Shown here piece by piece: positions 38,291 through 54,081 of a DNA stretch of 64,000 bases. Each line of letters begins with the position of its first letter. The stretch's first letter is position 1. Position numbers and translations under genes: made by a program. The notes below the pieces were generated by a model, which saw only the letters and a list, made by a program, of their open reading frames with translations, was not told the DNA's origin and did no database searches. Source of the stretch: Sinorhizobium numidicum (GTDB lineage: Bacteria; Pseudomonadota; Alphaproteobacteria; Rhizobiales; Rhizobiaceae); NCBI RefSeq assembly GCF_029892045.1, contig NZ_CP120368.1:3039501-3103500 (forward strand), in the 5' to 3' direction.

Positions 38291-38557
38291 TCACTTCCGG
38301 TCTCCGGCTAGGCCGGCGCTTGGGTCACTGACCGCGATCGAGCATTGACGCAAGAAGAGCGCCAATAGGCTAGCCGAGATTAGAGCGCGGCTCCATCCGA
38401 TATCTCTGGCAAGGCGGTGAGAGCCTGCCTCGGCTTCGGAGCCAAGCAGCCACAGCATTAGGCAAGGCTTGAGCAGCAGCGTCAACAGCACAGTCACGGC
38501 AAGACCACCGGTGATCGCGTCGAGAGCACCCGTTGCTAAAGGAATGATCTCGACCAT
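38291..38557 (-). CDS. small two-helix membrane protein upstream of ybaL-type gene
   Basis: About 88 residues from an ATG at 38557: hydrophobic GGLAVTVLLTLLLKPCLMLWLL, a hydrophilic loop, then SRALISASLLALFLRQ. It ends 3 bp before the antiporter ATG, suggesting coupling. Its first codons overlap the truncated left edge of the adenine methylase pseudogene on the other strand, so it may itself be a trimmed remnant. No family recognised. Confidence 0.4.
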   Translation of the reverse strand: MVEIIPLATGALDAITGGLAVTVLLTLLLKPCLMLWLLGSEAEAGSHRLARDIGWSRALISASLLALFLRQCSIAVSDPSAGLAGDRK

Positions 38558-39259: not shown

Positions 39260-39335
39260 CCGGTAGCGCTAGCTACCACCTGGGATATTGTCCATCTTTA
39301 TCGTGCAGATTCGCGGCTGAGTTGGACATTTCTCT

Positions 39336-41135
39336 ATGAAGACCCCTGCTATCTCGAAATTGTTGATTGTTGCAGATGATGCAAAGCTCGCGGCGCAGGC
39401 TTCATGCCGGTTTTCTAGCTCTGGGCAATACCTTCCGATCGTGGATGGTCCTCGGATGTCGCGGCCTGACTGGCCGGATGAAGTTTTGCGCCGCAGCAAC
39501 GTGGCTGCCAGAATAAGGCCGGAACAAATTTTGTTTGCCGGAGTCTCGGACACTGGCTGTGAGGCGATGTGCTCGCAGCTGCCCAGATCGAGGATAGAGC
39601 GAGTTTCAACGAGTTCGGACTTGCCGCCGTTTTCATCCAATCGGCCGCCCTTGAGATGGGGTCGGAATAGAATTGGACTTGGGCTGCTCACTGCTCTACG
39701 GGCGAAGACTGAAATTTTCTTCGACGACACTGAGTCTCCCCTGATCCCAGTTCCCTCTAAATCGGGTCATCTCGTCGTTTGCGAGGCAGGCGAAGAGCTT
39801 GAGCTCGAGAGTGTGATCGCTGCAAACTACGCATTCTCGCTGCAAGCGGGTATGGCAATGATCCCACATGTACCGCAAACAGCTAGCGAGCGCATTTTGG
39901 AGCGGTTTTATAGTGTGTACGATGACCTTTCGACGTCGGCGACTAAAGCACTTGAGGAACTGCGCGCAGAACTCCGCGCCCTTTGCGCGGGGGTCGAAAT
40001 CCCACCTCACGGATCGATCACGTTTGTAAGCCGGCGTCTGCCATTCGGCTTCGCATTTCCGGAAGTCCCTTCCACTCACCTCTTTATCTACCCTGATCTC
40101 GGTACGTCGGTCGTGAACGGCTTCACATTCGAAGAGACCGAGCGAGCAACGAAGGTCGCGGTCGTTGTCGATCCCGGCCAAGCGGAAGCGCCTGAAATTG
40201 AGGCTGCCGCCCACTTGTTGGCCTCGAAGGGAACGTTTGTTCGTGGATACTCGGATGCAGGAGCGAGCGTTCGTGCGATATCCGAAATGATTGAGCACTT
40301 TCCCTACGACTTGCTGATTGTAGCGACGCATTGCGGAGATGTTCCGGGTCACCGCTGGACTTATGAATTTACTGACTCGGAAGGCATCGATCGAGAGTTG
40401 GTGGTTGATATCGCGTTGGGTATCGCAAGCACCGATGACCCCGACCTGCTGCGGTTAACACGATTCGTACGCTTCCACTCTCTAGATCGTGTAGACTGGA
40501 ATGACCCCGCCAAAAAGGAAAAGCTGTACGTCGGAACTGCAATCAAGGACTACGCCGAGTGGGTCCATGAACAGGAGCCCGTTTACAAGGACCAAGTCGA
40601 AAGAGTGATCGGTTCTGCGGCCCTCAGGATGTACGACCACAACATAATTCCTATCCCAAGGTCGCTCGCATCCGGCAGAACGCCCGTGGTGATAAACAAT
40701 GCCTGTGTGTCTTGGCATGAGCTTGCGGCTCGGTTTCTGTTCGCAAACGCTCGTGCGTACATTGGTTCACTTTTTCCGATCAGCACGTCGGAGGCGCACG
40801 ACGTCGTCTTGAGCCTTCTCGGAAAACATATCGAGAAGCCCTTAGCGCATGCATTGTGGGCATCGCAGCGTGGGGTTTACGGCGAGAGTGTGCGCCGACC
40901 ATATGTCGTCAGTGGAGTCTATCCGCAGCGCCTCTATCCCTCTTGGATCGACGCTCCCCGCCACATCGTCGCTTGCTTGTCTGAAGCGCGACAGAGATGG
41001 CACGCCTTTTTCAACGGTAAGCAACGTTTAAAAGGGCCATCAAAAACGGTCAAAGTGAGCAAAGATGAGGCCGCCATCTTGGCTTATTTCGACCGAGAGA
41101 TCGCATCGATTCGTTCGAGATACGGGCTGAAATGA
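39336..41135 (+). CDS. CHAT-like (caspase-fold) peptidase domain protein, unassigned
   Basis: 599 residues. The C-terminal half has the features of a CHAT peptidase: DLLIVATHCGDVPG with His332 as the candidate base, VVINNACVSWHELAARFLFA with Cys457 as the nucleophile, then ARAYIGSLFPISTSEAHDVV and PLAHALWASQRGVYG, the usual 'GS-L-P, A-ALW-AQ' run. The 125 residues between His and Cys are more than usual. Residues 1-240 match nothing I know. No signal or membrane segment. It has lower GC than neighbours and sits between a dead phage gene and a mobile-element remnant, so lateral origin and a defence or death role are inferred. No partner gene is adjacent. Confidence 0.7.
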   Translation: MKTPAISKLLIVADDAKLAAQASCRFSSSGQYLPIVDGPRMSRPDWPDEVLRRSNVAARIRPEQILFAGVSDTGCEAMCSQLPRSRIERVSTSSDLPPFSSNRPPLRWGRNRIGLGLLTALRAKTEIFFDDTESPLIPVPSKSGHLVVCEAGEELELESVIAANYAFSLQAGMAMIPHVPQTASERILERFYSVYDDLSTSATKALEELRAELRALCAGVEIPPHGSITFVSRRLPFGFAFPEVPSTHLFIYPDLGTSVVNGFTFEETERATKVAVVVDPGQAEAPEIEAAAHLLASKGTFVRGYSDAGASVRAISEMIEHFPYDLLIVATHCGDVPGHRWTYEFTDSEGIDRELVVDIALGIASTDDPDLLRLTRFVRFHSLDRVDWNDPAKKEKLYVGTAIKDYAEWVHEQEPVYKDQVERVIGSAALRMYDHNIIPIPRSLASGRTPVVINNACVSWHELAARFLFANARAYIGSLFPISTSEAHDVVLSLLGKHIEKPLAHALWASQRGVYGESVRRPYVVSGVYPQRLYPSWIDAPRHIVACLSEARQRWHAFFNGKQRLKGPSKTVKVSKDEAAILAYFDREIASIRSRYGLK

Positions 41136-41200
41136 ATGCTGAATACGGCCTGAGCACTCTCAGCCTGAGATGTGAGCCGCCGCGCCAAATCGCGTCGATT

Positions 41201-41247
41201 TCCCGGTCCTGGCGGTCAACTTTCCGGGAAGTCGCGGCGAGCTACAC
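41201..41247 (+). repeat. direct repeat A flanking a DUF3606 gene
   Basis: About 47 bp (CCGGTCCTGGCGGTCAACTT, then CCGGGAAGTCGCGGCGAGCTACAC) that recurs at 41570-41617 with roughly nine differences. Perhaps a terminal piece of an old insertion element; no transposase remains. Confidence 0.6.
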
Positions 41248-41320
41248 CCTTGAAATTGGCTAGTTGCTACTCGCGCCTAGCCCTCTACCTTTCAGAGAAG
41301 AGGAGGATGGAGGCAAAGCC

Positions 41321-41503
41321 ATGGCAGACGATCTGCAGAAGCGAGGGCGGGACAGCGAGCGCGTGTCTGTGCAGGACCACGAGATCGACTACTTGATGAG
41401 AACCACCAATGCGCCGAGGCAAAAGGTGCTGGAGGCCATTCGCGAGGTCGGTCCTGATCGCAAGAAGGTACTCCTATATCTCCTGAAAGACAGCAGCAGC
41501 TAA
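41321..41503 (+). CDS. DUF3606 domain protein, copy 1
   Basis: 60-residue protein starting MADDLQKRGRDSERVSVQDH, then EIDYLMRTTNAPRQKVLEAIREVG, the DUF3606 helix pair, ending in basic/hydrophobic KKVLLYLLKD. Small and soluble; no function known. AGGAGG 20 bp upstream; the nearest ribosome site is AGGCAAAG. A paralogue lies at 50232-50405 on the other strand. Bracketed by the direct repeats at 41201 and 41570. Confidence 0.78.
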   Translation: MADDLQKRGRDSERVSVQDHEIDYLMRTTNAPRQKVLEAIREVGPDRKKVLLYLLKDSSS

Positions 41504-41569
41504 AGATCCAATGGCGAAGTCGTTCTAAGAGCAGCCTGCCACTTTTCTCAGAGAACTGGAAAAGCAGTT

Positions 41570-41639
41570 TTTCCGGTGCTCGCCGTCAAAATTCCGGAAA
41601 TTCGCGGCGAGCTACACGGAAAGTCGCGGCGCGCTACAG
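41570..41639 (+). repeat. direct repeat B plus half-copy
   Basis: TTCCGGTGCTCGCCGTCAAA, then TTCCGGAAATTCGCGGCGAGCTACAC matches repeat A at 41201. Directly after it comes a second partial copy, AAAGTCGCGGCGCGCTACA (41620-41638). Same orientation as A, 369 bp away. Confidence 0.6.
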
Positions 41640-41872
41640 CGGCGCTACATGCGCACTGTAAAATGCTGAAAATAGTGATGAACTTTGGTAGCGGAGGTCC
41701 GTTCTTGTCATAATAGCCGAACGGAGACCCCTGATATCATTGACCTTGGCACTTGGCAGGAAGCGCTCTTAAGCGCAATTCAGTCTTACAGGGATGGATG
41801 AACCCAAAAACGCGAGGTAGATCGAAGGAATGGGTGCGTGATAGCCTTTGCCGCCGCTTTCGAGGGGCGGCC
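41640..41872. other. stretch with no supported gene
   Basis: No convincing frame, RNA or repeat is seen between repeat B and the end of the HNH gene. Confidence 0.5.
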
Positions 41873-42184
41873 TCACTGTGCTGCCCTTATGACAGGATTC
41901 GCTCTGGGGTACTCGTGGATCTCACCTCGCTTGAGCGATCGGTAGGTCAACCAATCAAGCTCTTGCCGACCGTCATTGCACTTCTTGCACGACATGGCGA
42001 TATTCGAAGGATGATCCGTACCGCCATCGGCTAGCCGTTCTAGGTGCTCGATCGTGGCGGCATCTGGCCTCTGCTGATCGCGCCAGCGGTAGGACAGAAT
42101 GACGTGCTGGTCACAGTAACAGCATTTGCCGCCCTGCTTTTCGAAGAGCTTTAGGATGAGTTGTCGTTTGATAGCCGTCTTCAT
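41873..42184 (-). CDS. HNH endonuclease family protein
   Basis: 103 residues from ATG at 42184 (MKTAIKRQL). A zinc-bound HNH fold is indicated by CCYCD (residues about 21-25), the ATIEHLERLADGGTDHPSNI segment with the catalytic His, and MSCKKCND. The pattern is C-x2-C ... H ... N ... C-x2-C. It could be a free-standing nuclease in a mobile element or a phage terminase-associated HNH. Minus strand, next to the tRNA gene. Confidence 0.8.
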   Translation of the reverse strand: MKTAIKRQLILKLFEKQGGKCCYCDQHVILSYRWRDQQRPDAATIEHLERLADGGTDHPSNIAMSCKKCNDGRQELDWLTYRSLKRGEIHEYPRANPVIRAAQ

Positions 42185-42301
42185 CCCGGCAAAGTAGCAT
42201 CCACAAACCAAAGGGGCCACCCGCCGTGAAGCGGATGGCCTAGTGGGTGGCAGCGCGCCGCGCATGGAGGGGCGGTGGTGTCGCGCTCGCCTGTGGTGAT
42301 T

Positions 42302-42378
42302 TGGAGGCCCCTGCAGGGCTCGAACCTGCGACCTAGTGCTTAGAAGGCACTTGCTCTATCCAGCTGAGCTAAGGGGCC
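42302..42378 (-). tRNA. tRNA-Arg (anticodon UCU)
   Basis: Minus-strand cloverleaf GGCCCCTTAGCTCAGCTGGA...GGTTCGAGCCCTGCAGGGGCC, with encoded CCA at 42304-42302. The anticodon loop CTTCTAA gives anticodon UCU (reads AGA). Acceptor stem 7 bp, T-arm GGTTCGAGCCC. It lies at the left edge of the prophage-like region and could be an integration site. Confidence 0.95.
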
Positions 42379-42386
42379 GGAAACTC

Positions 42387-42773
42387 TCAGTTTGCCGCAG
42401 ACTTCGGCGGTAGTAGATAGTAATTCAATCGCGTCGCCTGCATGTCGACCTGATGCAGCATTCGCAGACCTTCAGCGGCGTCACGGAGCAGCTTATCCAT
42501 TTTGTTGATGATCTCTTCGGCGCCTTCCTCGTCGCAGCAGAGATCATAGACGTAATTCGTCAGAAGGTGATTCACGCAGCCCAGCCGGTGCAGCACGTTC
42601 TCGATGTCCATTGGCGCGATGTCGACGGCCTTCTCCAAGATCGCGTCTGTCGTCGCGTATCCAATTTCCACCGTAGCTTGATCTCTCCGTTCATCGGCCG
42701 CATCGATCATCGCGACTGTCGATCTGAAGAGAGGGTAAAGGTCTGGTTGGCTGTTTAAGGGTTCATTAATCAT
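42387..42773 (-). CDS. hypothetical protein
   Basis: 128 soluble, largely helical residues rich in Asp and Glu (DAADERRDQATVEIGYATTD, EEGAEEIINKMDKLLRDAAEG). No domain recognised. It is divergent from the XRE repressor gene and shares its operator region, so the repressor probably controls it. Its AT-poor, phage-like setting suggests an early phage gene. Confidence 0.6.
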   Translation of the reverse strand: MINEPLNSQPDLYPLFRSTVAMIDAADERRDQATVEIGYATTDAILEKAVDIAPMDIENVLHRLGCVNHLLTNYVYDLCCDEEGAEEIINKMDKLLRDAAEGLRMLHQVDMQATRLNYYLLPPKSAAN

Positions 42774-42807
42774 GTGGGCTGCTCCTCGTTGCGCCTGCCG
42801 TTCAATG

Positions 42808-42824
42808 TGATACTATTCGTATCA
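42808..42824. promoter_or_regulatory. operator 1 for the XRE repressor
   Basis: Perfect dyad TGATAC-TATTC-GTATCA, 14 bp before the repressor start. The core ATAC-N5-GTAT is repeated in operator 2. Confidence 0.65.
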
Positions 42825-42838
42825 ATAGGGAGTAACCC

Positions 42839-43105
42839 ATGTCAATACTAAAAGTATCAGTTCGGCAAGTTAAAGCTGCCAGAGCCATGCTCGACTGGTC
42901 TCAAGCCGAGCTAGCGGAGAGATCCGGCGTATCCGAGCCAACGATAAAGAGGCTTGAAGCCTCCGACGGGGAGCTAGGTGGGCGAACAGACACTGCCCAA
43001 AGGATAGTCGGCACACTCGAATCCGCCGGCGTGCTGTTCCTCGATGGCCCCTACTCCGGCGATGGCGGCCCCGGCGTCCGCCTTCGCTCAGTAGATCGCG
43101 CATGA
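42839..43105 (+). CDS. XRE-family HTH regulator (phage repressor-like)
   Basis: 88 residues. The HTH spans about residues 9-45: QVKAARAMLDWSQAELAERS, then GVSEPTIKRLEASDGEL. The C-terminal end (VLFLDGPYSGDGGPGVRLR) is the short tail common in rhizobial small XRE proteins. It overlaps operator 2 at its start and follows operator 1, so it most likely represses itself and the divergent gene. Confidence 0.85.
   Translation: MSILKVSVRQVKAARAMLDWSQAELAERSGVSEPTIKRLEASDGELGGRTDTAQRIVGTLESAGVLFLDGPYSGDGGPGVRLRSVDRA
42843..42859. promoter_or_regulatory. operator 2, inside the start of the XRE gene
   Basis: CAATAC-TAAAA-GTATCA: the same ATAC-N5-GTAT layout as operator 1, 35 bp further on, covering codons 2-7 of the repressor gene. 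Confidence 0.55.
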
Positions 43106-43245
43106 AGTGGCTAGTGGCCGCAGCTACCGCGATCGCAGTCCTGCTTCTGTTTTTGCTGATTTCGGGCATTGCCGACATCCCGTGCCAAGCAGGCAGTTGG
43201 CATCCAGGCAAATACACCTGCACACATACAGGAGTGACGTCATGA
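43102..43245 (+). CDS. 47-residue membrane protein
   Basis: Starts MKWLVAAATAIAVLLLFLLI: one N-terminal hydrophobic segment, then a short tail with three cysteines (DIPCQAG, YTCTHTG). ATG overlaps the end of the XRE gene by 4 bp, suggesting coupling. Could be a small membrane or secreted peptide; unknown. Confidence 0.55.
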   Translation: MKWLVAAATAIAVLLLFLLISGIADIPCQAGSWHPGKYTCTHTGVTS

Positions 43246-43292
43246 CAGTGAGAAGCGCTCGCCCGCCTCGTCTATGGGTGCTATAAAGCTGG

Positions 43293-43556
43293 ATGCCCAA
43301 AGACGAACAGCAATATGAGTTTTCAGAATTTTCCGGCGAGTTCGTCGACGACGAGGGATCAGTTTTTCTGCGCATCTACCGGCCTGCCGGCACCAACCTC
43401 GATTGGATGCTTGAGGTGCTCGACGAGGAAGAAAACACGACCGTCTGGGACGGCACCTTCGATACAGACCGAGACGCGTTCGAAGAGTTTTTAGCGACCG
43501 TTGAGCGAGACGGCATCCGCACCTTCTCGGATCAGCCGGTGCAAAAGCTGCATTGA
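43293..43556 (+). CDS. hypothetical acidic protein
   Basis: 87 residues, very acidic (many E/D, for example EFSGEFVDDEGSVFLRIYRP and LEVLDEEENTTVWDGTFDTD). No domain recognised; likely soluble. Acidic, DNA-mimic-like composition is notable for phage-borne genes, but that role is inference. Spacing suggests it is separate from the overlapping chain downstream. Confidence 0.6.
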   Translation: MPKDEQQYEFSEFSGEFVDDEGSVFLRIYRPAGTNLDWMLEVLDEEENTTVWDGTFDTDRDAFEEFLATVERDGIRTFSDQPVQKLH

Positions 43557-43709
43557 CGCTTGACCGCGAGATTTCGCGCAAATAGCTTCCAATTCGCGGT
43601 CTACCAAACCGCAATGTCGTTCGCGGCGCACCACCACTAAGAGGAGACGACAAGAACGCGGTCGGCATCCGTGCCGGCGGCAATCGTCGTAACTCTATTG
43701 GAGGTGCTT

Positions 43710-44000
43710 ATGCAGCCAACGATTCCCCTTGATGCCATCTATACCGCCACGGAAGCTGCCGAGCGGCTGCGTGTGACGCGGCGGACGATCATCAAGCTTG
43801 GTCGCGATCTCGGCGCATGCTCGAAAATTAGTGACGAGTATCTATTCAGTGAGAAGGACCTGCTGGACATTTGGCAGGCGCAGCGGGCGATGCCGACTAG
43901 CTCCCAAGGGCGTGCGGTGAATGTGAAAGCCTTCCTGTCTGATCTGCGGCTTCAGCGATCCTTAGTGTCACTGACCCAGAAGAAACGACGCCGGCCATGA
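43710..44000 (+). CDS. HTH (MerR/excisionase-like) protein 1
   Basis: 96 residues. YTATEAAERLRVTRRTIIKL near residues 11-30 is a helix-turn-helix of the HTH_17 (excisionase/MerR-like) type. GGAGGTGCTT before the ATG. First gene of a tightly overlapping chain of four; the next starts 4 bp inside it. Confidence 0.65.
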   Translation: MQPTIPLDAIYTATEAAERLRVTRRTIIKLGRDLGACSKISDEYLFSEKDLLDIWQAQRAMPTSSQGRAVNVKAFLSDLRLQRSLVSLTQKKRRRP

Positions 44001-44293
44001 GCGTCGATGACTTTCTGGATGGCCTCCTCACACCAGAAGAAATCGCGCGCCGTATCACTGCGTCGAGCGGCGTGCATATGACGGCTCGCACGGTGTGGGA
44101 GAAGGCAAAAAGATTAGGCGTGGCCAAGAAGATTGGCAGGTCGCCGCTTATCCACCTCTCCGACGTTCCGCGGTTGCTCGAGGTGGAGAAACACATTCGA
44201 TTGCCCGCCTATAGATCCGACTTCGATCCAATTGCCAGCAACAGCAGAAAGCGAGCTCTCGCGGCGCTTCGAAAGAAACGGCTCCAGCGATGA
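43997..44293 (+). CDS. HTH-like protein 2
   Basis: 98 basic residues. LTPEEIARRITASSGVHMTA, then VWEKAKRLGVAKKIGRSPLIHL fits a DNA-binding winged or HTH_17-like fold. Overlaps neighbours by 4 bp on both sides. Likely a phage or element regulatory protein; identity not certain. Confidence 0.6.
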   Translation: MSVDDFLDGLLTPEEIARRITASSGVHMTARTVWEKAKRLGVAKKIGRSPLIHLSDVPRLLEVEKHIRLPAYRSDFDPIASNSRKRALAALRKKRLQR

Positions 44294-44589
44294 CCATCGA
44301 TCCTCTTTCTCAACTCCCCCTGTTCGCCACAGACCAGCAATTAGCTGTGGTGATCGTCGGCAAGGATCGCGCTTCGATGTGGATGAAGGCAGTCATCCCT
44401 CAACTGGAGCGAAAGGGCTTTCCGCGGATCGATCCGCTGCATGACGGGCGGCCAGTGCCGCTCGTGAGGAAGTTCTACGATGGGTATTTCGGAATAACGG
44501 CTGGCTTGGCCGCAGCCGCGCCCGACGGGAAGGAGGATTGGAGCGTTTGGAATTCTCGGCGCCGTGTTAGGAGATCTGGTGATGAATGA
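44290..44589 (+). CDS. hypothetical protein in excisionase-like chain
   Basis: 99 residues, no domain I can name. VVIVGKDRASMWMKAVIPQL then LVRKFYDGYFGITAGLAAAA; its basic C-terminus is NSRRRVRRSGDE. Overlaps the HTH genes on both sides (4 bp and 8 bp), so it belongs to the same transcript. Confidence 0.6.
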   Translation: MTIDPLSQLPLFATDQQLAVVIVGKDRASMWMKAVIPQLERKGFPRIDPLHDGRPVPLVRKFYDGYFGITAGLAAAAPDGKEDWSVWNSRRRVRRSGDE

Positions 44590-44839
44590 CTCCCCTCGCC
44601 TCATCGGCCGCAAGGAGGCGGCAACATACTGCGGCATCTCTCCCACCTGCTCTATGTGGGTGGCGACGCACAAGATGCCGCCGGCTATACCTGGCACGCG
44701 CAAGTGGGACAAACGGGCAATTGACGCGAAGTTGGACGAGATAAGTGGACTTGCGACTCACGAACCCGCGAAAGAAACCGGTTTGCAGAAATGGAGGCGT
44801 GAGCGCGACGTGCGGCGAGCAGCACGAGAAGCGCGTTGA
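44582..44839 (+). CDS. HTH/AlpA-like DNA-binding protein
   Basis: 85 residues from ATG at 44582. LIGRKEAATYCGISPTCSMW and PGTRKWDKRAIDAKLDEISG match the small 'HTH plus PGTRxWD' proteins that sit right before tyrosine integrases in many rhizobial prophages, where they may act as excisionase. Here no integrase follows. It is the last of the chain. Confidence 0.65.
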   Translation: MNDSPRLIGRKEAATYCGISPTCSMWVATHKMPPAIPGTRKWDKRAIDAKLDEISGLATHEPAKETGLQKWRRERDVRRAAREAR

Positions 44840-44938
44840 CCGCAACCAACTGTGGAATTCAACACCACAGACGCTTCCCTGCCCCGCTCAACCATGCTTT
44901 GTTGCGGCGGGGGCAAAGTTCTTCTTAGAGGGGCAATA

Positions 44939-45271
44939 ATGAAAATCCGTCTAATCGTGCTGGCGTCCGCGCTGGCCGTAGCTTCTTGCGCGAAACGTCC
45001 TGACGCTATCGTGCCAGTCGATATTCCGATGGCGGCATATAGCAACCAGAGTTGCGAAGGGTTGGCGCAAGAGCTGCTGAAAGAGCAAAACAATCTCGCG
45101 GCCGTTTCAAAGCAACAGAACCAGGCCGCGACGGGCGACGCAATCGGCGTATTCTTGGTCGGAGTACCTGCTTCCAGCACGCTCGGCGGCGACAAGGAGG
45201 GGCAAGTCGCGGTGTCCAAGGGCAAGGTCAATGCGATTGAATCGTCGATCAAGAGCAAGGGCTGCAAGTAG
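44939..45271 (+). CDS. small lipoprotein
   Basis: 110 residues from ATG at 44939 (MKIRLIVLASALAVASC). Lipobox ASC (Cys17) followed by AKRPD. The mature part has SNQSCEGLAQELLKEQNNLA and helical KQQNQAATGDA, with two cysteines. Similar small lipoproteins occur in rhizobial prophages as accessory (lysogenic conversion) genes. Outer or inner membrane location cannot be told; Asp is not at +2. Confidence 0.65.
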   Translation: MKIRLIVLASALAVASCAKRPDAIVPVDIPMAAYSNQSCEGLAQELLKEQNNLAAVSKQQNQAATGDAIGVFLVGVPASSTLGGDKEGQVAVSKGKVNAIESSIKSKGCK

Positions 45272-45310
45272 CAGCCTCTCTGGTTTCTACCCTCCAATTT
45301 GGAAGAACTT

Positions 45311-46933
45311 ATGACCTTCAAATTCTCCGTTCCGTACCAGGATGGGCAGAAAGAATTTGCCGTTGAACCGGGAAACGCGATCATATTTGTGGGCGCCAAT
45401 GGAGGCGGAAAGACCCGTTTGGCCGTTCAAATTGAGACTAACTTAGGTCTTGATGCGCACCGGATATCGGCTCATCGCGCGCTGAACTTGAATCCGGACG
45501 TAGCAAAAATCGGAGAGAAGAAGGCGAGGATGGGCCTTCGCACAGGCAATGCTAGCGAGAATGCAGATTTACGGCACAGAGCACCGAATCGTTGGGGTGG
45601 TCAAAAGGGTGCCGTGAGACTTCTGGATGACTTCGATTTTCTGCTTCAAGTGTTGTTTGCTGAGCAAGCAAATACCTCCCTCAAAGCGTACAACCAACAC
45701 AAGCCGGGTGCAGGTCAAACCAAGGAAGAATTTCAGCTTACCAAGTTTGACTTGTTGTCAGACATTTGGTCTCGGCTGCTACCGCATCGAGTACTGCATA
45801 TTTCTGGCGACGATATCCTAGTTTCATTGCCGACGTCTGACCTCAAGTACAATGCATCAGAAATGAGCGACGGTGAGCGTGCAATCTTCTACATGATTGG
45901 CCAGACGCTCGTGGCGGAGCCGAATCAAGTATTGATTATTGATGAACCCGAGCTCCACGTTCACCGCTCAATTATGTCCAAACTCTGGGATGAGTTGGAG
46001 GCTGCTCGGCCAGATTGCGCATTTATATTCATCACGCACGACCTTGAGTTTGCTGCTGCGCGCGCGGCGCGGAAATACGTGATCCGCGATTACGAACCCA
46101 CTCCACGATGGACAATCGATGAGGTGCCGGCCGACACCGGCTTTGACGAAGATCTTGCAACCCTGATCTTGGGCAGTCGGAGGCCAATATTGTTCGTGGA
46201 GGGCGGCCGTTCCAGCCTCGATTTGCCATTGTATCGATGCTGCTACCCTGAATGGACTGTCGTACCTCGGTCATCCTGCACCGAGGTTATACACGCAGTG
46301 GTGACCATGCGAGCGAACGAAGAGCTAACCCGCATCACTTGCTGTGGTATCGTCGATGCCGATGATTACAGTGATGAAGATAAGAAATACCTGTCTGAGC
46401 TTGGAATAGAAACGCTTCCAGTTTCCGAAATAGAAAACCTGGTCCTTCTGCCAACGATCAGCCGTGCCATAGCGGAGGCGGATGGCTATCGCGATGCCGA
46501 ATTGGAAAAGCGACTCGGTGAATTAGCTGAGAACATCTTCCAGAGCATCGACTCAGATGAAAAAATCGAAGCAGTTGCCGTTCGGTATGCAAAGCGGCGT
46601 ATCGATAGAATGCTGAAGAAAGTCGATCTGAGCAAAGCAAAGACCATCGAACAGCTTGAGGATGAACTCACGGAGAGGATCGGAGAACTGAATATCCGGA
46701 CTTTAGCTGAACGCTTGAAGCACCAAATTCACGAGGCTATCCGAAATCGTGATCTACCCGGGCTTCTTGCGCACTACGATAACAAGGGTTTGATGAACCT
46801 CGCCGCTACGAAGCTCAAGTCAACCCGGCTGACAGACTTCGAAAGCTGGCTCACTCGCACGCTTCGAAACAAGACCGCTCCAAACGTGGTGAACGCCATA
46901 TCGAACTATCTGCCCAAGATCATCCCTTCGTGA
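45311..46933 (+). CDS. AAA ATPase-DUF4435 (TOPRIM-like) fusion, PARIS-like candidate
   Basis: 540 residues. N-terminal ABC/AAA-type ATPase: Walker A GANGGGKT at 28-35, signature MSDGER at 185-190, Walker B LIIDEPELH at 208-216, H-loop ITHD. The second part begins ILFVEGGRSSLD (Glu297) and has CGIVDADDYSDEDK (Asp349/351/352), the E and DxD of a TOPRIM/OLD-like nuclease as in DUF4435. This is the content of AriA plus AriB of the PARIS anti-phage system, here in one chain. It is AT-rich compared with its neighbours and stands where the prophage integrase would be. Function is inferred from domains. Confidence 0.7.
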   Translation: MTFKFSVPYQDGQKEFAVEPGNAIIFVGANGGGKTRLAVQIETNLGLDAHRISAHRALNLNPDVAKIGEKKARMGLRTGNASENADLRHRAPNRWGGQKGAVRLLDDFDFLLQVLFAEQANTSLKAYNQHKPGAGQTKEEFQLTKFDLLSDIWSRLLPHRVLHISGDDILVSLPTSDLKYNASEMSDGERAIFYMIGQTLVAEPNQVLIIDEPELHVHRSIMSKLWDELEAARPDCAFIFITHDLEFAAARAARKYVIRDYEPTPRWTIDEVPADTGFDEDLATLILGSRRPILFVEGGRSSLDLPLYRCCYPEWTVVPRSSCTEVIHAVVTMRANEELTRITCCGIVDADDYSDEDKKYLSELGIETLPVSEIENLVLLPTISRAIAEADGYRDAELEKRLGELAENIFQSIDSDEKIEAVAVRYAKRRIDRMLKKVDLSKAKTIEQLEDELTERIGELNIRTLAERLKHQIHEAIRNRDLPGLLAHYDNKGLMNLAATKLKSTRLTDFESWLTRTLRNKTAPNVVNAISNYLPKIIPS

Positions 46934-46981
46934 CAATCATGATGATCTGTGGCACGTCCCCTCTCACTATAAGTTCGGCGC

Positions 46982-47956
46982 TCAGTCGAGTTCAAAAACA
47001 GTCGCATCATCCGCCCGTTCCCTGATCCCCTTGAACGACGGATGCCGCAGCTTTCCGTCTTCCGTCCACGCGCGATATTCGACCTCGGCGACGAGCAACG
47101 GTTCGGTGAAAACGGCGCCCTTGCGCTGGAGGTTCACCGCCGGCGTTTTCGTCGCCATTCCTTCGAGCAAATTGCGCAGCTCGCGCGACAGTTCGCTTGA
47201 CCAACCCGTACCGCAGCCGCCGACATAGACGAGATCGCCGCCTCTCCTCGCCCCCAGCAGGAGCCGGCCGAGCGCACCGGGCACGGTCGACGGCTCGAAG
47301 CCAACGATCACGAAGGTGTCGCGCCGCCTACAGGTGATCTTCTGCCACCAGTCGCCCCGACCGCTGCGGTAGGGCTTTCCCCGATGCTTGGCGATGATGC
47401 CTTCTATGCCATGCGCGCAGGCGGCGCGGAGGAAGTCTTCGCCGTCCGCCTCCACTTCCTCAGAAAACCGAATTGTTCCTTCCTGGCCGGCGACGAGTGG
47501 TTGCAGCAGCCGGCGACGCTCTCGCAGCGGCAGTCGGCGCAGGTCGCGGCCATCGAGATAGAGGAGATCGAACGCGTAGAAGACAATAGCGCCCGCTTCA
47601 TAGGACGATGGCAGACGCCCAAGGGCGCGCTGCAGCATGCCGAAATCGGATCGCCCCTTCTCATCGAGCACGACGGCCTCGCCGTCGATGACCGCCGTGT
47701 TCACGGCAAGCCGCCGCGCATCGTCGGCGATCGTCGGAAAGCGATCCCTCCAGTCGTAGCCGCCGCGTGTGATTATCCGTATTCTGTTCGGCTCGATATG
47801 GACGGCAAGCCGGTAGCCATCCCACTTCACCTCAAAGGCCCAATCCGGTCCCCGAGGCGGCTTATCGACTAGCAGCGCCAAGCACGGCTCGACACGATCC
47901 GGCATCGGGTCCGGTGGAGGGGCGTCACGCGGTGTTTTCGTGGTTATTCTGGCCAT
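46982..47956 (-). CDS. ATP-dependent DNA ligase, LigD-type
   Basis: 324 residues. The adenylation motif is FEVKWDGYRL (KWDG lysine at about residue 44), then DGEAVVLDE and EGIIAKHRGKPYRSGRGDWWQKI, ending with the OB fold (VGFEPSTVPGALGRLLLGA). It is the ligase domain alone, without the polymerase or nuclease domains of full LigD. Such ligases join breaks in non-homologous end joining with Ku; no ku gene is in the window. It faces the ATPase gene (47 bp apart). Confidence 0.92.
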   Translation of the reverse strand: MARITTKTPRDAPPPDPMPDRVEPCLALLVDKPPRGPDWAFEVKWDGYRLAVHIEPNRIRIITRGGYDWRDRFPTIADDARRLAVNTAVIDGEAVVLDEKGRSDFGMLQRALGRLPSSYEAGAIVFYAFDLLYLDGRDLRRLPLRERRRLLQPLVAGQEGTIRFSEEVEADGEDFLRAACAHGIEGIIAKHRGKPYRSGRGDWWQKITCRRRDTFVIVGFEPSTVPGALGRLLLGARRGGDLVYVGGCGTGWSSELSRELRNLLEGMATKTPAVNLQRKGAVFTEPLLVAEVEYRAWTEDGKLRHPSFKGIRERADDATVFELD

Positions 47957-48029
47957 GCGACCGTTAACGCACGAGCGGCAGATAAAAGAGCACCACGTCG
48001 GTAAATAATTTTGCTCAGCCTACGTTGGC

Positions 48030-48422
48030 TCAAACATGAACCGGTTTAAAAGTAGCTGTCAGAGCGCGAAATATTTCGCGAGCGATAAGGTGCGTGGCGG
48101 CTGTGCGTGGGCCAGCGGGTTGTCGCGCAAAATCCTCAAGAGCCATCTCCGGAATTGCCCAGATAGCGTTGGTGATGAGCCCGATCACCTCGTCTTGGTG
48201 CGCCTCCGCTGAATTCCGGCGGAATTGATAGTGACGCCCCACCCGCATAAAGACGTGAATGGCAATTGCACCCGCGCCGCGACGATCGGGCGGTTCCGAT
48301 TTTCGGCCCGACAGCAGCGTTCGCCGCAAGCCGTCGTCGATTTCCAACAGAGCAATGTGGATCGCTGATGCATTCAGTTCTCGCGGCAATTTCCTGCCTC
48401 CGCTGAGGTTCGCGTTTTCCAA
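48030..48422 (-). CDS. hypothetical protein
   Basis: 130 basic residues with no recognised domain (MENANLSGGRKLPRELNASA start; GRHYQFRRNSAEAHQDEVIG mid). No signal or membrane segment. Independent support for coding is weak: only the open frame and codon use. Confidence 0.4.
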   Translation of the reverse strand: MENANLSGGRKLPRELNASAIHIALLEIDDGLRRTLLSGRKSEPPDRRGAGAIAIHVFMRVGRHYQFRRNSAEAHQDEVIGLITNAIWAIPEMALEDFARQPAGPRTAATHLIAREIFRALTATFKPVHV

Positions 48423-48616
48423 GCCTGTTAAACGCCTTGGCGCTTCAGAGGGTCCCTGCCGGCTGCAGACATTCGGCCTGCTATACGATCAAATTGACGC
48501 CATTGACTCCCTGAATGATGAGAACATAATAAGAACATTCACCGGCGCTGCGGCGCGCCACATCCGAAACTTAGGGGGACCGGACATCCGCTCATGCGGC
48601 ATTTGAAAGGTGCGCC

Positions 48617-49069
48617 ATGCGAACATTTGAAGATGAAATCACAAACCTGATCGCGGTCGACTTTGCCGTTCTCAAGCCCTTTCAAAGGCGGGCCATCGCC
48701 GGGCTCGATCAATATGGCCGCACGATCGAGGTTCGCGGCATCGAGGACATGGCGACGAAGATAGCCGCCTCTTTCGCGCCCTTTGCCATCTGGGATGGCG
48801 ATCAGGTGCTGCGCTATCCGGCGATGACACCGCTCATCACGCAAACACTACATGCGATCCCGATCGAGCTGCGGCGCGAAGCCTGCGCCAGGGACCGGCT
48901 AAAGGCATCGGCCGCGCGCGACCGCATCGCCAGGCTGATATCGTCGGCGCTGCTCGGCCGCTATCGCTTCGAGCCGCTGAGCCGCACCAGCGCGGCATGC
49001 TACATCGACTGGGAAGCAGCCTTCGAGGCGCAGTTCGGCAGCGACGGCAAGAAGGTTGTCGGAGATTGA
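48617..49069 (+). CDS. hypothetical protein
   Basis: 150 residues starting [20 protein letters not shown] after AAAGGTG. Mixed alpha/beta look ([20 protein letters not shown]), C-terminus basic (DGKKVVGD). I do not recognise the family. Directly followed by two further small genes on this strand; the three may form a transcript with the SRAP gene. Confidence 0.55.
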
Positions 49070-49112
49070 CGCGGATCCGTTACGCCATAGCTTTCGCGAT
49101 GGAGGACCGAAT

Positions 49113-49325
49113 ATGAGTGACGAGAATGGCGCCAAGCCGCACTTTGAAGGCGGCCCCTATCTTCACTACTGCGAGCATCCTGGCTGCAACAAGTGGGGCG
49201 GCTTCGGCTTTGCGACCGGGAAGGCCAAGCCGAACTGGTTCTGTTTCGAGCACCGGCCGGAGTGGAAACCGCGCGATGCGACGTCAGCGGGTGGTCGTCT
49301 AAACAATGAACACTTGAACAGCTAA
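49113..49325 (+). CDS. small Cys/His-rich (zinc-ribbon-like) protein
   Basis: 70 residues from ATG at 49113 (MSDENGAKPHFEGG). HYCEHPGCNKWGGFGF and WFCFEHRPEW give a C-x4-C ... C-x2-H pattern, similar to the N-terminus of the J-domain protein at 9689 (CQWDGC...FCFEH). It may bind zinc. Function unknown; upstream of the SRAP gene. Confidence 0.6.
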   Translation: MSDENGAKPHFEGGPYLHYCEHPGCNKWGGFGFATGKAKPNWFCFEHRPEWKPRDATSAGGRLNNEHLNS

Positions 49326-49365
49326 CGCCGGCGGCACGAACTTGTTTGGGTGAGAGAGGGAACAT

Positions 49366-50076
49366 ATGTGCGGACGTATCTATATCAAGACCAATCTGGA
49401 CGGACTGTTGCGCGAGTTCTCTTTCGCGCAGCGCCAAGGCGTCGAAGGGCTGGCGAACCAGTTCCCGCGCTACAACGGCGCGCCATCGCTCGATTATCCG
49501 ATCATCATCCGCGATGTGATCCGGGAGCCGAACCTCTTCGGCCCGGTCTTCGTCAGCGCCCGATGGGGCCTCATCCCACGCTGGATCAAGGGGAAACCCA
49601 ACCGGCCGCCACCGGTCAACGCCCGCTGCGAGGGCATCTCAACCAGCGGCATGTTCAAGGACGCCTACCGCGTGCGGCGTTGTCTCATACCGATCGATGG
49701 TTTCTTCGAATGGAAGGACATCTATGGCACGGGCAAGAACAAGCAGCCCTACGCCATCGCCATGAAATCCGGTGAGCCGTTTGCGCTGGCCGGCATTTGG
49801 GACACCTGGCGCAACCCGGAGACGGATGAGGATATCCGCACCTTCTGCGTCATCACCTGCCCGCCGAACGAAATGATGGCGACAATCCACGACCGGATGC
49901 CAGTGATCCTGCAGCGCGAGGATTACGCGCGCTGGCTTTCGCCGGAGCCGGACCCGTTCGATCTGATGAAGCCGTTTCCGGCCGAGTTGATGACGATGTG
50001 GCCGATCGATCGGAAGGTCGGCTCGCCGAAGAACGACACGCCCGATATCCTCGATCCGACCGAACCTGTTGCATGA
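49366..50076 (+). CDS. SRAP-family protein (YedK/HMCES-like)
   Basis: 236-residue SOS response-associated peptidase fold. The mature catalytic N-terminus Cys2 (MCGRIY) is intact, with ARWGLIPRWIKG, NARCEGI, GFFEWK (Glu) and IHDRMPVIL (His). The family forms a DNA-protein crosslink at abasic sites in single-stranded DNA to shield them. Full length. No LexA box was identified upstream. Near the LigD-type ligase; both are DNA-repair functions. Confidence 0.94.
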   Translation: MCGRIYIKTNLDGLLREFSFAQRQGVEGLANQFPRYNGAPSLDYPIIIRDVIREPNLFGPVFVSARWGLIPRWIKGKPNRPPPVNARCEGISTSGMFKDAYRVRRCLIPIDGFFEWKDIYGTGKNKQPYAIAMKSGEPFALAGIWDTWRNPETDEDIRTFCVITCPPNEMMATIHDRMPVILQREDYARWLSPEPDPFDLMKPFPAELMTMWPIDRKVGSPKNDTPDILDPTEPVA

Positions 50077-50171
50077 GTGTTCGCGAACCGATGGTCACGT
50101 GGAACCAAAACGCGCAGCTTAAGTTAACTTGATGCCGAGCAATTCGGCGTTCAGGTCCCCCAACCTGTCAG

Positions 50172-50213
50172 GAGTGCCCGTTCCAGTCCCCCTGCGCGGG
50201 CACTCGCATTTTT
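50172..50213 (+). terminator. rho-independent terminator after the SRAP gene
   Basis: Perfect 9-bp arms GAGTGCCCG (50172-50180) and CGGGCACTC (50197-50205), then GCATTTTT. Confidence 0.75.
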
Positions 50214-50231
50214 AAAGCCGCCTCGCCGCCC

Positions 50232-50405
50232 CTATTTCTTGCCGAGATATTCCATCACCTTGTCTCGGTTCGGCCCGGCCTCGCGAATTGCTTGAAGAGC
50301 CTTCTGCCTCGTCACCTTCGCCGTCCTCATGAGGTAGGCCACCTCGTGCTCCTGTTCGGACACCAGCTCGCGATCACGGCCTTTCTTCTTCGGATTATCC
50401 GCCAT
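50232..50405 (-). CDS. DUF3606 domain protein, copy 2
   Basis: 57 residues from ATG at 50405 (MADNPKKKGRDRELVSEQEH), then EVAYLMRTAKVTRQKALQAIREAG: paralogue of the protein at 41321-41503, with the same MAD start and helix pair. Ends KVMEYLGKK. Minus strand, facing the SRAP terminator. Function unknown. Confidence 0.75.
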   Translation of the reverse strand: MADNPKKKGRDRELVSEQEHEVAYLMRTAKVTRQKALQAIREAGPNRDKVMEYLGKK

Positions 50406-50417
50406 GCTCTCCTCCAT

Positions 50418-50749
50418 GAATGAACAATGAAGGATAGAGGCGATTTACGTCGCGGCAAGATGACCACCCCAGTCTCACCCTAATGGTTCCCTACTCGTGC
50501 CGGACCTCAAACTACAACTTCCGACAGTAAAGCGGCGCTCACTATTAAAACGTAGGGTAGTTTTTGGGTGCGCTAGCGTGATAGCTAGGTGACGTTCGTG
50601 AGCGTGACTGAAAGGATTGTCAGGCTCGGTGAACTATCGATGCCAGCAGACGACCACGCCGCACCCCTTTTTGGACGACCTGACGCCGGCTCAACAGAGA
50701 AGCCGGGGTCCGCCTTACCCAATCCAACCGCGCAACAGTGGAGATCGTC
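50418..50749. other. stretch with no supported gene
   Basis: About 330 bp between the second DUF3606 gene and the next gene. I see nothing beyond upstream sequence of both. Confidence 0.5.
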
Positions 50750-51196
50750 ATGACAGAAAACTCTAAGATTCCTCCGGCCAAGAGGACAATCGAAGATCCC
50801 CCCGAATACGCGGCCGCCTCCGGCGAAGCCACTTGGTCTGGCAGGGGTAAGGCTGCCGAGGCAGAATCTCAAGAAGGTCTTCGGGGCCAGCTTAAATGGA
50901 ATGAGCAGCGTAGCGGCGAGACCGAAGCCGCTCCTTCCAGCTCGGATGCGGTCACCCAACCCAATTCGCCTCATGCCAGCGAAGCCACCATGCGATATAA
51001 CCCACGTGACAGCGCCGAGGATCGGGCTCAAGAAGATCCCCCGGTTGCAGGTGATCCGATTAACCAGGCGGACCCGGCGGCTGGACAAAGCAGAGCGACG
51101 TCCGATGACCACCATCCGTCCACTAAGTTTGAAGCGGTCACCTCCGAGGCAGGTCATGTTGCCAGCGGCGGGATTGGTGGCATTAAGAATACGTAG
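50750..51196 (+). CDS. hypothetical disordered protein
   Basis: 148 residues from ATG at 50750 (MTENSKIPPAKRTIEDPPEY). Rich in Pro, Glu, Ser, Ala and Gly with no hydrophobic core (ETEAAPSSSDAVTQPNSPHA); probably disordered and soluble. Similar low-complexity proteins are common in rhizobial plasmids and stress loci. The 286-codon frame on the opposite strand is judged a shadow. Confidence 0.55.
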   Translation: MTENSKIPPAKRTIEDPPEYAAASGEATWSGRGKAAEAESQEGLRGQLKWNEQRSGETEAAPSSSDAVTQPNSPHASEATMRYNPRDSAEDRAQEDPPVAGDPINQADPAAGQSRATSDDHHPSTKFEAVTSEAGHVASGGIGGIKNT

Positions 51197-51443
51197 AGCG
51201 CCGCGCTGATTGCGCGATTGTCCCTGGGAAGGGAGCATCCGGTAGCGCGAAACGGAAGTCAGGCGCCTTTTAGCCGTCCTCCTGGGAACCAGAACGAAGC
51301 GAAAGGTTGGGCATTGCGCAGGGTAGTGCGCAATAACCCGCCCTCCTCCACGAGGTGGCGTGTTTGCTAGGGGGTCTATCGCCCGGGAAGCGAATAGGCG
51401 GCAGTTCAGTGGCGACCAATATTGAAGGACAAGCGAGGAAATC

Positions 51444-52100
51444 ATGACAAACGTCGATCAAATTGGCGCATCCGGCAATCACCTGCTTCTGATGGCGGGT
51501 CTTTCTAAGGATGATGTCGAATGCGTGACAATGACAGACCTTTGGATTCAAAGCGTTTTCCGCGCGACGCTTGCACGGCAGGGCTGGAGCGATGACAAGA
51601 TATACGATCCTGCGATGCAGCAAAGCGATGAATACATCGCTACTCTGATGGCCTCTATCGCGGAAGATACGCGGTGGACATCAGTAATGGACTCCCCTCA
51701 GAAGTTCTCTGGAGAATGCAATAATCAAACTGCGGTGCAATTGTTGGAATTCTGGCTTGGGACGCTGGGGGAACCACTCGCCTATGTTTCAAGCACAATA
51801 CACTCTGCTGGACCAGAAACCTATTCCGTTGGTGATCGTTTTTGGAAGAACAGCCGGAACAATTGCTTCGGGATGTCTGCTGCCATAAAGCCCGGCCCAA
51901 TTCAGTACGCCTATACGGCTATGTCACTGTCGAACCCGATTGGAAACTGGACGGAGCTATTTAGCCCCTCTACTAATACAATTCAGGCAACATGCATTCA
52001 GATCACCATCGATCCAATCCTTTTTTCCGAACTGCGGCAAGATGTGGAAGAGCAGCTCGGTGACCGTGTAAACGCGATCATGACAGCCCCGTACCCATAG
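51444..52100 (+). CDS. hypothetical protein at prophage edge
   Basis: 218 residues, AT-richer than its neighbours. Near the middle, FSGECNNQTAVQLLEFWLGT; C-terminal IQITIDPILFSELRQDVEEQL. No membrane segment. GAGGAAATC precedes the ATG. I do not recognise it; composition and place suggest a moron or accessory gene of the prophage. Confidence 0.6.
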   Translation: MTNVDQIGASGNHLLLMAGLSKDDVECVTMTDLWIQSVFRATLARQGWSDDKIYDPAMQQSDEYIATLMASIAEDTRWTSVMDSPQKFSGECNNQTAVQLLEFWLGTLGEPLAYVSSTIHSAGPETYSVGDRFWKNSRNNCFGMSAAIKPGPIQYAYTAMSLSNPIGNWTELFSPSTNTIQATCIQITIDPILFSELRQDVEEQLGDRVNAIMTAPYP

Positions 52101-52134
52101 GTTTCCCAGTCTTGCTCGAACAGTTTAGTTTTTG

Positions 52135-52473
52135 TTATGTTCTGGTTGAGCGGCTTGATCGTTGTTCGAAAACGCGGTCGAGCCTTTCGCTGATCGCATC
52201 TACTCGGCTGCCGACGCCCTCGATCGCGCGCATAATCTGCGCGGTTTGGGCTTCCATTCCCGCCTTCGTGGCGTAGGTCTCAGCGGCCCGCAGCTTGAAC
52301 CCTGCCAAGTCTTCGGCCACCTTGCTGGCCCGCTCCTCCGCCTCCCTAATCCGCCCCTCGGTGGATTTCTCGCCTTCCTTGACGCGGCTGTCGATCTTCC
52401 ACCAAATGCCCCATCCGGCGCCCGCCACTGTAAGGAAGAAGAGAACTGCCTTCATTATTTCTTCTGGGGTCAT
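52135..52473 (-). CDS. coiled-coil membrane protein of the lysis module
   Basis: 112 residues: one N-terminal membrane segment (IMKAVLFFLTVAGAGWGIWW) and a long charged helix (EGEKSTEGRIREAEERASKV onward, to about 110). It is a single-pass, spanin-like layout, but a true i-spanin partner was not found. Its start overlaps the holin stop by 4 bp. Probable lysis accessory. Confidence 0.65.
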   Translation of the reverse strand: MTPEEIMKAVLFFLTVAGAGWGIWWKIDSRVKEGEKSTEGRIREAEERASKVAEDLAGFKLRAAETYATKAGMEAQTAQIMRAIEGVGSRVDAISERLDRVFEQRSSRSTRT

Positions 52474-52856
52474 CGCCGCCCCCTAATAGCCGCAGCGATC
52501 GACTGGATGCCGGCTACGCCAGCGCCTGAACCAAACACCGCGGCAATGATCTGCGTGGCGTAAGGCTTCACGCTCGGCGGCAGGTCGGTAATATGGCCAG
52601 AGAACAGGAAGACGCTATCAAGGCATATCGCCCCGAGCCAGAAGCCGACGGGGGCGGCGAAGAGCGCCCACACGCACCAGAACACGCGAGACTGCATCGC
52701 CGCGGCGCGCGTCTCCGCTTCGGTGGCGATGTATTTGGCGATGACGTCGCCCGCGACTTTCTGCCGTTCCGTTTCGTTGTCGATCGACTTGTCGAGCGAC
52801 GTAAGGATGCGGTCGAGCGGGCCGTTTGTAGCCCATTTTAGTAAGAGGCTAAGCAT
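52470..52856 (-). CDS. phage holin (three-helix type)
   Basis: 128 residues. A charged N-terminal helix (TSLDKSIDNETERQKVAGDV) precedes hydrophobic spans (RVFWCVWALFAAPVGFWLGA, and QIIAAVFGSGAGVAGIQSIA). Same strand as and downstream of the lysozyme, as holin. The name is inferred from layout and context. Confidence 0.7.
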   Translation of the reverse strand: MLSLLLKWATNGPLDRILTSLDKSIDNETERQKVAGDVIAKYIATEAETRAAAMQSRVFWCVWALFAAPVGFWLGAICLDSVFLFSGHITDLPPSVKPYATQIIAAVFGSGAGVAGIQSIAAAIRGRR

Positions 52857-52907
52857 TGCACCTCGATGTAGGTTGTGCTGCTATCTGCACTCAACCTGAG
52901 TGCTGCT

Positions 52908-53144
52908 ATGTTCGATAGTGAAGAGATCGATATCCCCTGCCCCGAATGCGGCCACGAGGTCAGCAAGACGGTCGATTGGGTAAAAGAAAACGATGAACTC
53001 TCGTGCAGGAGATGCGGGAGCATCGTCGAGTTGGAGAACGAGAAACACTTTCTCATTATTGAGCACGTGACGCAGAGCATCACGAAACTCAGACGATCGC
53101 TCGCCAACTTTCCCAAGGACGCTCGAGGCACGCGGCCGCGGTGA
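52908..53144 (+). CDS. small zinc-ribbon protein, opposite to the lysis genes
   Basis: 78 residues from ATG at 52908. IPCPECGHEVSKTVDWVKEN with CRRCGS gives C-x2-C ... C-x2-C, a zinc ribbon, followed by a helix (VTQSITKLRRSLANF). It runs against the surrounding lysis genes, typical of a moron with its own promoter. No clear ribosome site, so the call is moderate. Confidence 0.5.
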   Translation: MFDSEEIDIPCPECGHEVSKTVDWVKENDELSCRRCGSIVELENEKHFLIIEHVTQSITKLRRSLANFPKDARGTRPR

Positions 53145-53154
53145 GATTTATCCG

Positions 53155-54081
53155 CTAGACCGCAGCCTCCTTGCCGCGCCAGGTGTTCCAACGGCGCTGG
53201 ATAAGGTCGCGATTTCGGTAAGCCACGTAGCCGAGCGCCAGCGCCAGCGCGCCAAGCGCAATCCACCCCCACGGCAAGCCAGCAGCGAACGCCAGTGCGC
53301 CAGAGCCAACGGCAGAGCCTGCGCCCTTGGTCGCTGCATCGCGGAGCGCTTTTGCGTCGCGCCGTAGCTGGCTCAAAGTTGCCGGCCCAAGAATGCCATC
53401 CGCTTCGAGGTGCGGGTGCGCCTTCTGGTACGCGATGATGGCGTCGCGCGTTTTCTCGCCCATCCAGCCGTCGATGGCGCCAGGATTGAAGCCCTTGCTG
53501 GTGAGAATTTCCTGCGCTTCCTTGACGACTGCGTCGGGCTTGCGAGGCGGCTTGTCGGTCGCCTCCTTCACTGCGCCGCCAACGGACGCGTAGCGCCCGC
53601 TCAGGAACAGGTCGGCCTCTTCCTTTCGACGCCGCACAAGGCCCGGCAGCCTCTTGCCGCCAGCCGTGTTGTAGTGGTTGCCGAGATAGGCTGCGGCACC
53701 CTTGATGTCGCCGGCACGCCAAAGATCGGCCCACGCCCACTGCATCGCGCCAGTGCCTAGGTTGTAGATTGCTGATACAGCGGCGTCCATCTGGTGCTGC
53801 GTGCGGCTCTTTGGCGACGACGCAACGACGGCAGGCTCGAATTCTTCAGCAAGCACCGCGGCGAAGATGGCGTCGGACTGCGCGGCCGTGATCTTCGTTT
53901 TGCCTGGCACGAGCTTGGTGATGCCCAAAGCGGCGAGCGCCTTGCGTACCGAGGCACTGCGCATCGTGAAGCCAGTGCCAATCGTGGCAACGCCGACAGG
54001 ATCCAGATAACAGGTCAGCGGGTTTCCTTCGTGGCCACGCATGAAGGCAAGCCCACGCGGTGACGTGGTGGTGATGGTCAT
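53155..54081 (-). CDS. phage endolysin: GH24 lysozyme, PG-binding domain, C-terminal TM
   Basis: 308 residues. The N-terminal lysozyme has E18, D27 and T33 (HEGNPLTCYLDPVGVATIG), the same spacing as E11-D20-T26 of T4 lysozyme. A peptidoglycan-binding-1 domain follows at about 180-240 (GFNPGAIDGWMGEKTRDAII). A C-terminal membrane segment (LPWGWIALGALALALGYVAY, about 268-287) and basic tail end the protein. It has no N-terminal signal, so export would need the holin or the terminal anchor. Confidence 0.88.
   Translation of the reverse strand: MTITTTSPRGLAFMRGHEGNPLTCYLDPVGVATIGTGFTMRSASVRKALAALGITKLVPGKTKITAAQSDAIFAAVLAEEFEPAVVASSPKSRTQHQMDAAVSAIYNLGTGAMQWAWADLWRAGDIKGAAAYLGNHYNTAGGKRLPGLVRRRKEEADLFLSGRYASVGGAVKEATDKPPRKPDAVVKEAQEILTSKGFNPGAIDGWMGEKTRDAIIAYQKAHPHLEADGILGPATLSQLRRDAKALRDAATKGAGSAVGSGALAFAAGLPWGWIALGALALALGYVAYRNRDLIQRRWNTWRGKEAAV

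Follow-up and report, generated by a model that had tools for sequence, protein, structure and literature searches.

A fused PARIS gene in a Sinorhizobium numidicum prophage with a serine integrase and a tRNA-Met attachment site

The gene and the encoded chain

The window analysed here comprises 64,000 nucleotides of Sinorhizobium numidicum (contig NZ_CP120368.1, positions 3,039,501 to 3,103,500, forward strand) and contains a gene, AriAB, which is a fused PARIS gene and thus a further member of an already published gene type (Table 1). An initial annotation had described it as a PARIS-like fusion of ATPase and TOPRIM parts, 540 residues long, with the motifs GANGGGKT, DEPELH and E...DxD, carried in the integrase position of a prophage; intact frame, motifs and residues could all be confirmed. 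A GGAAG lies 5 bases upstream of the ATG as judged by eye, and an alternative TTG start at 45299 would add four residues to the chain. Promoter-like sites (1 against 1.5 expected) and terminator-like sites (3 against 3.1 expected) occur at AriAB about as often as expected, so that neither element is supported.

Table 1. Features of the AriAB locus and of the surrounding prophage, in window coordinates.
Feature	Position	Strand	Details
attL	41685..41697	+	13 bases in common with the tRNA-Met 3' end at attR
Small-gene block left of the slot	42839..44839	+	HTH_3 at 42839 (8.7e-8), g43293, g43671, g43997, g44290, g44564
Small gene before AriAB, slot left edge	44852..45271	+	probably starts at ATG 44939; resembles a lipoprotein by eye
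Fused AriAB (PARIS) gene	45311..46933	+	540 aa; ATG 45311, stop ends 46933; frame open throughout
AriA-like ABC ATPase part	45311..46093	+	residues 1-261
Walker A, GANGGGKT	45392-45415	+	residues 28-35
DEPELH	45941-45958	+	residues 211-216
AriB-like TOPRIM part	46157..46930	+	residues 283-540
TOPRIM E297 (in LFVEG)	46199-46201	+	catalytic residue
TOPRIM DxD, D349/D351 (VDADD)	46355-46363	+	catalytic residues
E375	46433-46435	+	TOPRIM part
LigD-type ATP-dependent DNA ligase, slot right edge	46982..47956	-	DNA_ligase_A_M 1.8e-30, DNA_ligase_A_C 8.1e-22
Holin-like gene and endolysin	52470..54081	-	late-gene end nearest AriAB; phrog_7 endolysin 9.1e-58
attR	84437 in continued window coordinates (C2:3123937), outside the window		tRNA-Met 3' end
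Serine recombinase (integrase)	ending 84481, beside tRNA-Met		642 codons stop to stop; phrog_95 2.3e-28, Zn_ribbon_recom 1.5e-12

The PADLOC model of fused AriAB, PDLC02982, matches the chain over its whole length (E = 7.9e-142, 471.8 bits, residues 1–539 on profile positions 25–569 of 570), and Pfam finds AAA_21 (4.1e-11) and DUF4435 (6.2e-8; 33.1 bits at a cut-off of 27), both exceeding their cut-offs. Among the best 25 of 64 PADLOC families listed, all other models are far weaker and mostly fall on the ATPase part (AriA 2.9e-13, the fused model PDLC02981 6.3e-10, GajA 6.5e-7). The PHROGs family of such chains is phrog_25246 (1.5e-95), which is labelled as an ABC transporter, and a protein search with AriAB scored 7997 candidates, of which 2788 are homologs at E≤1e-20. 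Alongside the motifs listed in Table 1, the ATPase part contains SDGER at residues 186–190 and the His switch H243, and in alignment A1 of 43 sequences K34, SDGER, DEPE, H243, E297, D349, D351 and E375 are invariant. From viral and genome scans, 88 further loci were drawn for a residue check, with a suitable frame in 85 and a full-length one in 69. All 69 keep K34, D187, E189, D211, E212, H243, E297, D349, D351 and E375; S replaces T35 in 4 and G298 in 1. A chance match is therefore excluded by the PADLOC score, the number of homologs and the complete retention of these residues.

The folds of the predicted structures, which are single-chain models, are of the AriA and AriB kind. For the ATPase half, solved AriA is the top structural match in a tie with PtuA, with model residues 1–264 set against AriA 3–444 and 234 residues aligned, while for the C-terminal half AriB is the best match among the chains compared, though a loose one. 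Foldseek with the C-terminal half gave no significant match, and a sequence-only profile search of this half against solved structures returned nothing below E 0.03 and did not list AriB. OLD and GajA nucleases also join an ABC ATPase to a TOPRIM domain, and the chain could accordingly be read as a DNA-cutting nuclease, either of an OLD class or Gabija GajA. However, the GajA match is weak and limited to residues 176–226, and GajB is neither of the direct neighbours, which are a small gene without Pfam match and a DNA ligase gene. GajA is not among the 50 structural matches listed for the C-terminal half, which does not by itself exclude it. Gabija is rejected on the partial match and the missing GajB, and OLD becomes less likely since the C-terminal half fits AriB better in the structural comparison. 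The outcomes that the initial annotation had named as refuting its reading, a better match of the C-terminal half to another OLD nuclease such as GajA or a loss of the TOPRIM metal residues, did not come about, and these residues are present. We consider a DNA-cutting enzyme of this class a very remote explanation.

The prophage in the tRNA-Met gene

The carriage by a prophage proposed in the initial annotation is borne out by the attachment sites, the serine integrase and the phage structural genes. The prophage spans 42.8 kb, starting at 41685 and ending near 84449, and is inserted in a tRNA-Met gene, as follows from a 13-base att repeat, the occupied tRNA-Met site and the phage genes between. 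The repeat is the sole shared stretch of at least 11 bases between 84400–84530 and 35000–52200 on both strands; independent control stretches share 9–11 bases. A wider, 700-base query around the tRNA also shares 15 bases with a head-gene region (68533 and 84189), so that the att repeat is not proven by its length alone; more weight is carried by its placement, with one copy at either edge of the phage genes. The tRNA-Met and the gene following it are present in all 32 same-genus genomes searched, own included (in two pieces in G017). Of ten relatives compared over about 20 kb each, nine carry, left of their tRNA-Met, DNA that resembles the window as far as about 34.6–35.8 kb, and the tenth (L062, from G015) has short matches only at this place. 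In S. numidicum itself, that left-hand DNA and the tRNA-Met are about 49 kb apart. In a further locus (L066, from G026) an identical 50-base copy of the tRNA-Met 3' end lies at 10929–10978, 7.3 kb before the tRNA (18262), and probably belongs to another element sharing this site.

From the integrase toward AriAB, the gene order is primase/helicase, terminase, portal, major head, tape measure, tail fibre and endolysin. Matches to Sinorhizobium and Rhizobium phages were obtained, and the holin-like gene and endolysin are 91% and 84% identical in a prophage of a genome of the same genus (G013). AriAB lies 3.6 kb inside attL, with the integrase about 36 kb away at the opposite end, so that AriAB does not stand in the integrase position of its own prophage. 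No Phage_integrase (PF00589) match was found between C2:3054533 and C2:3497263, and the match ending at the former coordinate, at 14.5 kb of the window, lies outside the prophage. The proposed succession of small genes and integrase does hold for other prophages: among 34 related viral loci, obtained by scanning viral contigs with the g44290 protein, a 397-aa tyrosine integrase directly follows the g44290 homolog in five (L225 and L227–L230, with L230 cut by the contig end), and the copy in L225 matches PF00589 at 2.1e-7. Weak matches to phrog_66 (0.0028 and 0.0012) stand behind the label "excisionase-like" that the neighbouring small genes had been given.

The GC content of AriAB, 0.512 against 0.583 for the prophage, is the lowest among stretches of its length; of 823 equal-length prophage stretches, the only 4 that go down to this value each overlap AriAB. 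In 150 genomes, full-length relatives were found in S. numidicum itself, G123 (53% identity) and G058 (49%), while the relative in G096 is weaker (26%). The 32 other genomes of the genus, with 9 candidates scored per genome, yielded no full-length homolog, only short ATPase matches or none. The nearest named relatives in a tree of 30 chosen rows come from Acetobacter, Gluconacetobacter, Aquamicrobium and Serratia, and these hosts fit a horizontal spread of the gene. Two-piece versions on Rhizobium plasmids (H8 and H13) look like broken genes and not like a naturally split form, as their first piece has 207 aa and would end around Walker B.

We assign a probability of about three in four to the reading that a single-chain PARIS of the AAA_21 type is cargo of this 42.8 kb serine-integrase prophage in a tRNA-Met gene of the Rhizobiaceae, to which its identity, the intact catalytic residues, its location within the prophage and the differing contents of the slot contribute as direct observations. 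Alternatively, AriAB, whose role in defence is predicted, might have lost that role and be carried, neutrally or for another purpose, by a prophage in decay. However, the frame of AriAB is intact with all catalytic residues present, and integrase, terminase, portal and head genes are still open frames, rendering such a decayed cargo highly improbable.

Several further features lie in or beside the prophage. Just inside attL an extra tRNA-Arg(TCT) gene was found (42302–42378, minus strand), with an anticodon stem AGTGC/GCACT in comparison to CCTGC/GCAGG in the chromosomal copies of 6 genomes, own included, so that two pairs are changed on both sides. A link of this tRNA to AriAB, as a partner or antidote, is not supported, since such a tRNA occurs in 0 of the 55 AriAB loci scanned out of 88 and in 0 of 35 related prophage loci, some of which end short of the place. 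A gene with a SocA/Panacea domain stands near the prophage terminase genes (L041, 12807–13364, minus strand, 2.8e-20); this family is known from toxin-antitoxin systems. Left of attL lies a 599-aa frame (39336–41135, plus strand) for which neither Pfam nor PHROGs nor PADLOC gave a match at E≤0.01; its C-terminal third resembles a CHAT/caspase-like protease by eye. Two small similar proteins, one outside attL (41264–41503, plus strand) and one inside the prophage (50232–50417, minus strand), share by eye the pattern GRDxExVSxQxHE.

The slot between small-gene block and ligase

AriAB occupies a slot between a small-gene block, whose order is the same in related prophages with some genes missing in individual ones, and the LigD-type ligase gene. 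The gene at the left edge of the slot has homologs with 78–92% identity in 9 of the 34 viral loci. After the g44290 homolog, the LigD gene or its 3' end is found in 22 of these loci, the tyrosine integrase directly in the five named above and neither in 7. The slot stretch of the 22 LigD loci measures 611–2262 bases and its contents differ between loci: among 44 slot frames of at least 90 aa, own prophage and G013 included, 23 are without relative among the rest, where the filter of the count missed the bSEFIR gene of L217 and a 291-aa frame of L240, both recovered separately. The G013 prophage shares most of the small-gene block, the holin and the endolysin at 52–91% identity, has no match to g43997 or g44852, and carries two other genes, of 129 and 295 aa, where AriAB would stand, with a ligase-gene 3' end behind them. 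For the 295-aa gene (L209 5778–6665, equal to L172 5417–6304, minus strand) no Pfam or PADLOC match was found, and an R-x4-H motif (RNDLQH) resembling that of HEPN nucleases is visible by eye.

A PADLOC scan covered 15 of the 22 LigD loci, with slot genes but not every frame included (L209 via the identical G013 copy; L211, L212, L213, L219, L234, L236 and L237 were left out). Strong full-length matches appeared in three slots, with a complete Septu in L207 (PtuA 4e-149, PtuB 5.6e-77) and bSEFIR in L216 (4e-110) and L217 (2.7e-114). Partial ATPase or OLD-like matches were observed in L210 (AriA 4.1e-24, Old 1.3e-22, the OLD-like gene also matching Pfam OLD-like_TOPRIM at 6.7e-7) and L222 (AriA 5.6e-21), and weak ones in L215 and L220. 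In the remaining eight scanned slots (L208, L209, L214, L218, L221, L223, L231 and L240) there was no PADLOC match at E≤0.01, and the slot genes of L232, a locus without LigD, gave nothing in the scan either. When flanking genes were subjected to the same models (44852, 46982, 41873, 42387 and 43293), a match was obtained for the HNH gene at 41873 alone (4.6e-7). AriAB itself was rejected as a regular tenant of the slot: none of the 34 related loci carries it, L207 giving a 60-residue ATPase match only, and the slot flanking genes occur in none of 88 other AriAB loci at 1e-6. Its presence here is therefore a single case.

From these contents, the slot resembles a defence hotspot, here in prophages of the Rhizobiaceae. 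We see even chances that it is an undescribed exchange hotspot, where genes for fused PARIS, Septu and bSEFIR and OLD-like genes would replace each other and several of the unrecognised cargo genes would be new anti-phage systems. No description of such a hotspot was found in the literature searched, where most subscription journals fell outside. Fragments from the 3' end of LigD (roughly residues 264–324) lie beside the cargo in L207, L209, L210, L213, L216, L219 and L237, in addition to the LigD gene in L210, L213, L216 and L219 and as two pieces in L237, which suggests that cargo may be exchanged by recombination in the ligase gene; a recurring 92-aa frame stands beside LigD pieces in five loci. 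The prophage hotspots of P2, P4, Vibrionales and Bacillales, as presented in Rousset 2022 (PMC9122126), also feature conserved phage genes around a short varied defence stretch, whereas the phage family and the flanks, here the small-gene block and the LigD ligase, are different. A slot of varied contents, some of them known defence genes, merits a survey of its own, and the eight scanned slots without PADLOC match make it a place in Rhizobiaceae prophages to seek further defence genes.

Proposed tethered action and relation to two-gene PARIS

In two-gene PARIS, a hexamer of AriA holds three AriB, and upon binding of Ocr-like triggers to AriA, AriB leaves as a dimer and tRNA-Lys is cut between positions 40 and 41 (PMC12409363). 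By analogy, the ATPase part of the fused chain would sense an anti-restriction type of phage protein, whereupon the TOPRIM part would cleave a host tRNA and the infected cell would cease growth. We think that the fused TOPRIM part acts tethered and not as released free AriB, since there is one chain whose joining stretch is conserved, near-constant in length and confidently folded in the model: the spacing from H243 to E297 is 53–56 residues in 65 of 70 alignment rows, residues 261–292 show a conservation of 0.62 against 0.57 overall with a mean gap of 0.008 and 17 row-insertions in total, and pLDDT block means of the joining stretch are 83–87. Activation could then proceed by an ATP-driven rearrangement which lets TOPRIM parts pair.

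Alternatively, proteolysis after triggering could free the C-terminal nuclease, so that the release model of the two-gene system, which sets AriB dimers free (PMC12409363), would apply here too. However, no flexible linker is seen between the ATPase and TOPRIM parts, and together with the properties of the joining stretch given above this makes proteolytic release a doubtful route, with a free C-terminal toxin being unlikely. The single-chain PARIS thus poses a direct question, namely whether AriB must leave AriA in order to act or whether the nuclease can work while tethered.

Fused PARIS was already published, as Rousset 2022 (PMC9122126) documents, and no experimental test of it turned up in the literature searched. 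The whole-length match to this single-gene form (PDLC02982; "AAA_21+DUF4435" of Rousset 2022) is accompanied by nothing that would distinguish AriAB from it. Two-gene PARIS (E. coli B185; structures 8ux9 and 8v45–8v49) likewise consists of an ABC ATPase and a DUF4435/TOPRIM protein, with both halves similar in fold, and was originally found on P4-like phage satellites, AriAB being phage-borne as well. In contrast to its 6 AriA to 3 AriB, the single chain fixes a 1:1 ratio, and the ATPase part is shorter than AriA of the two-gene system.
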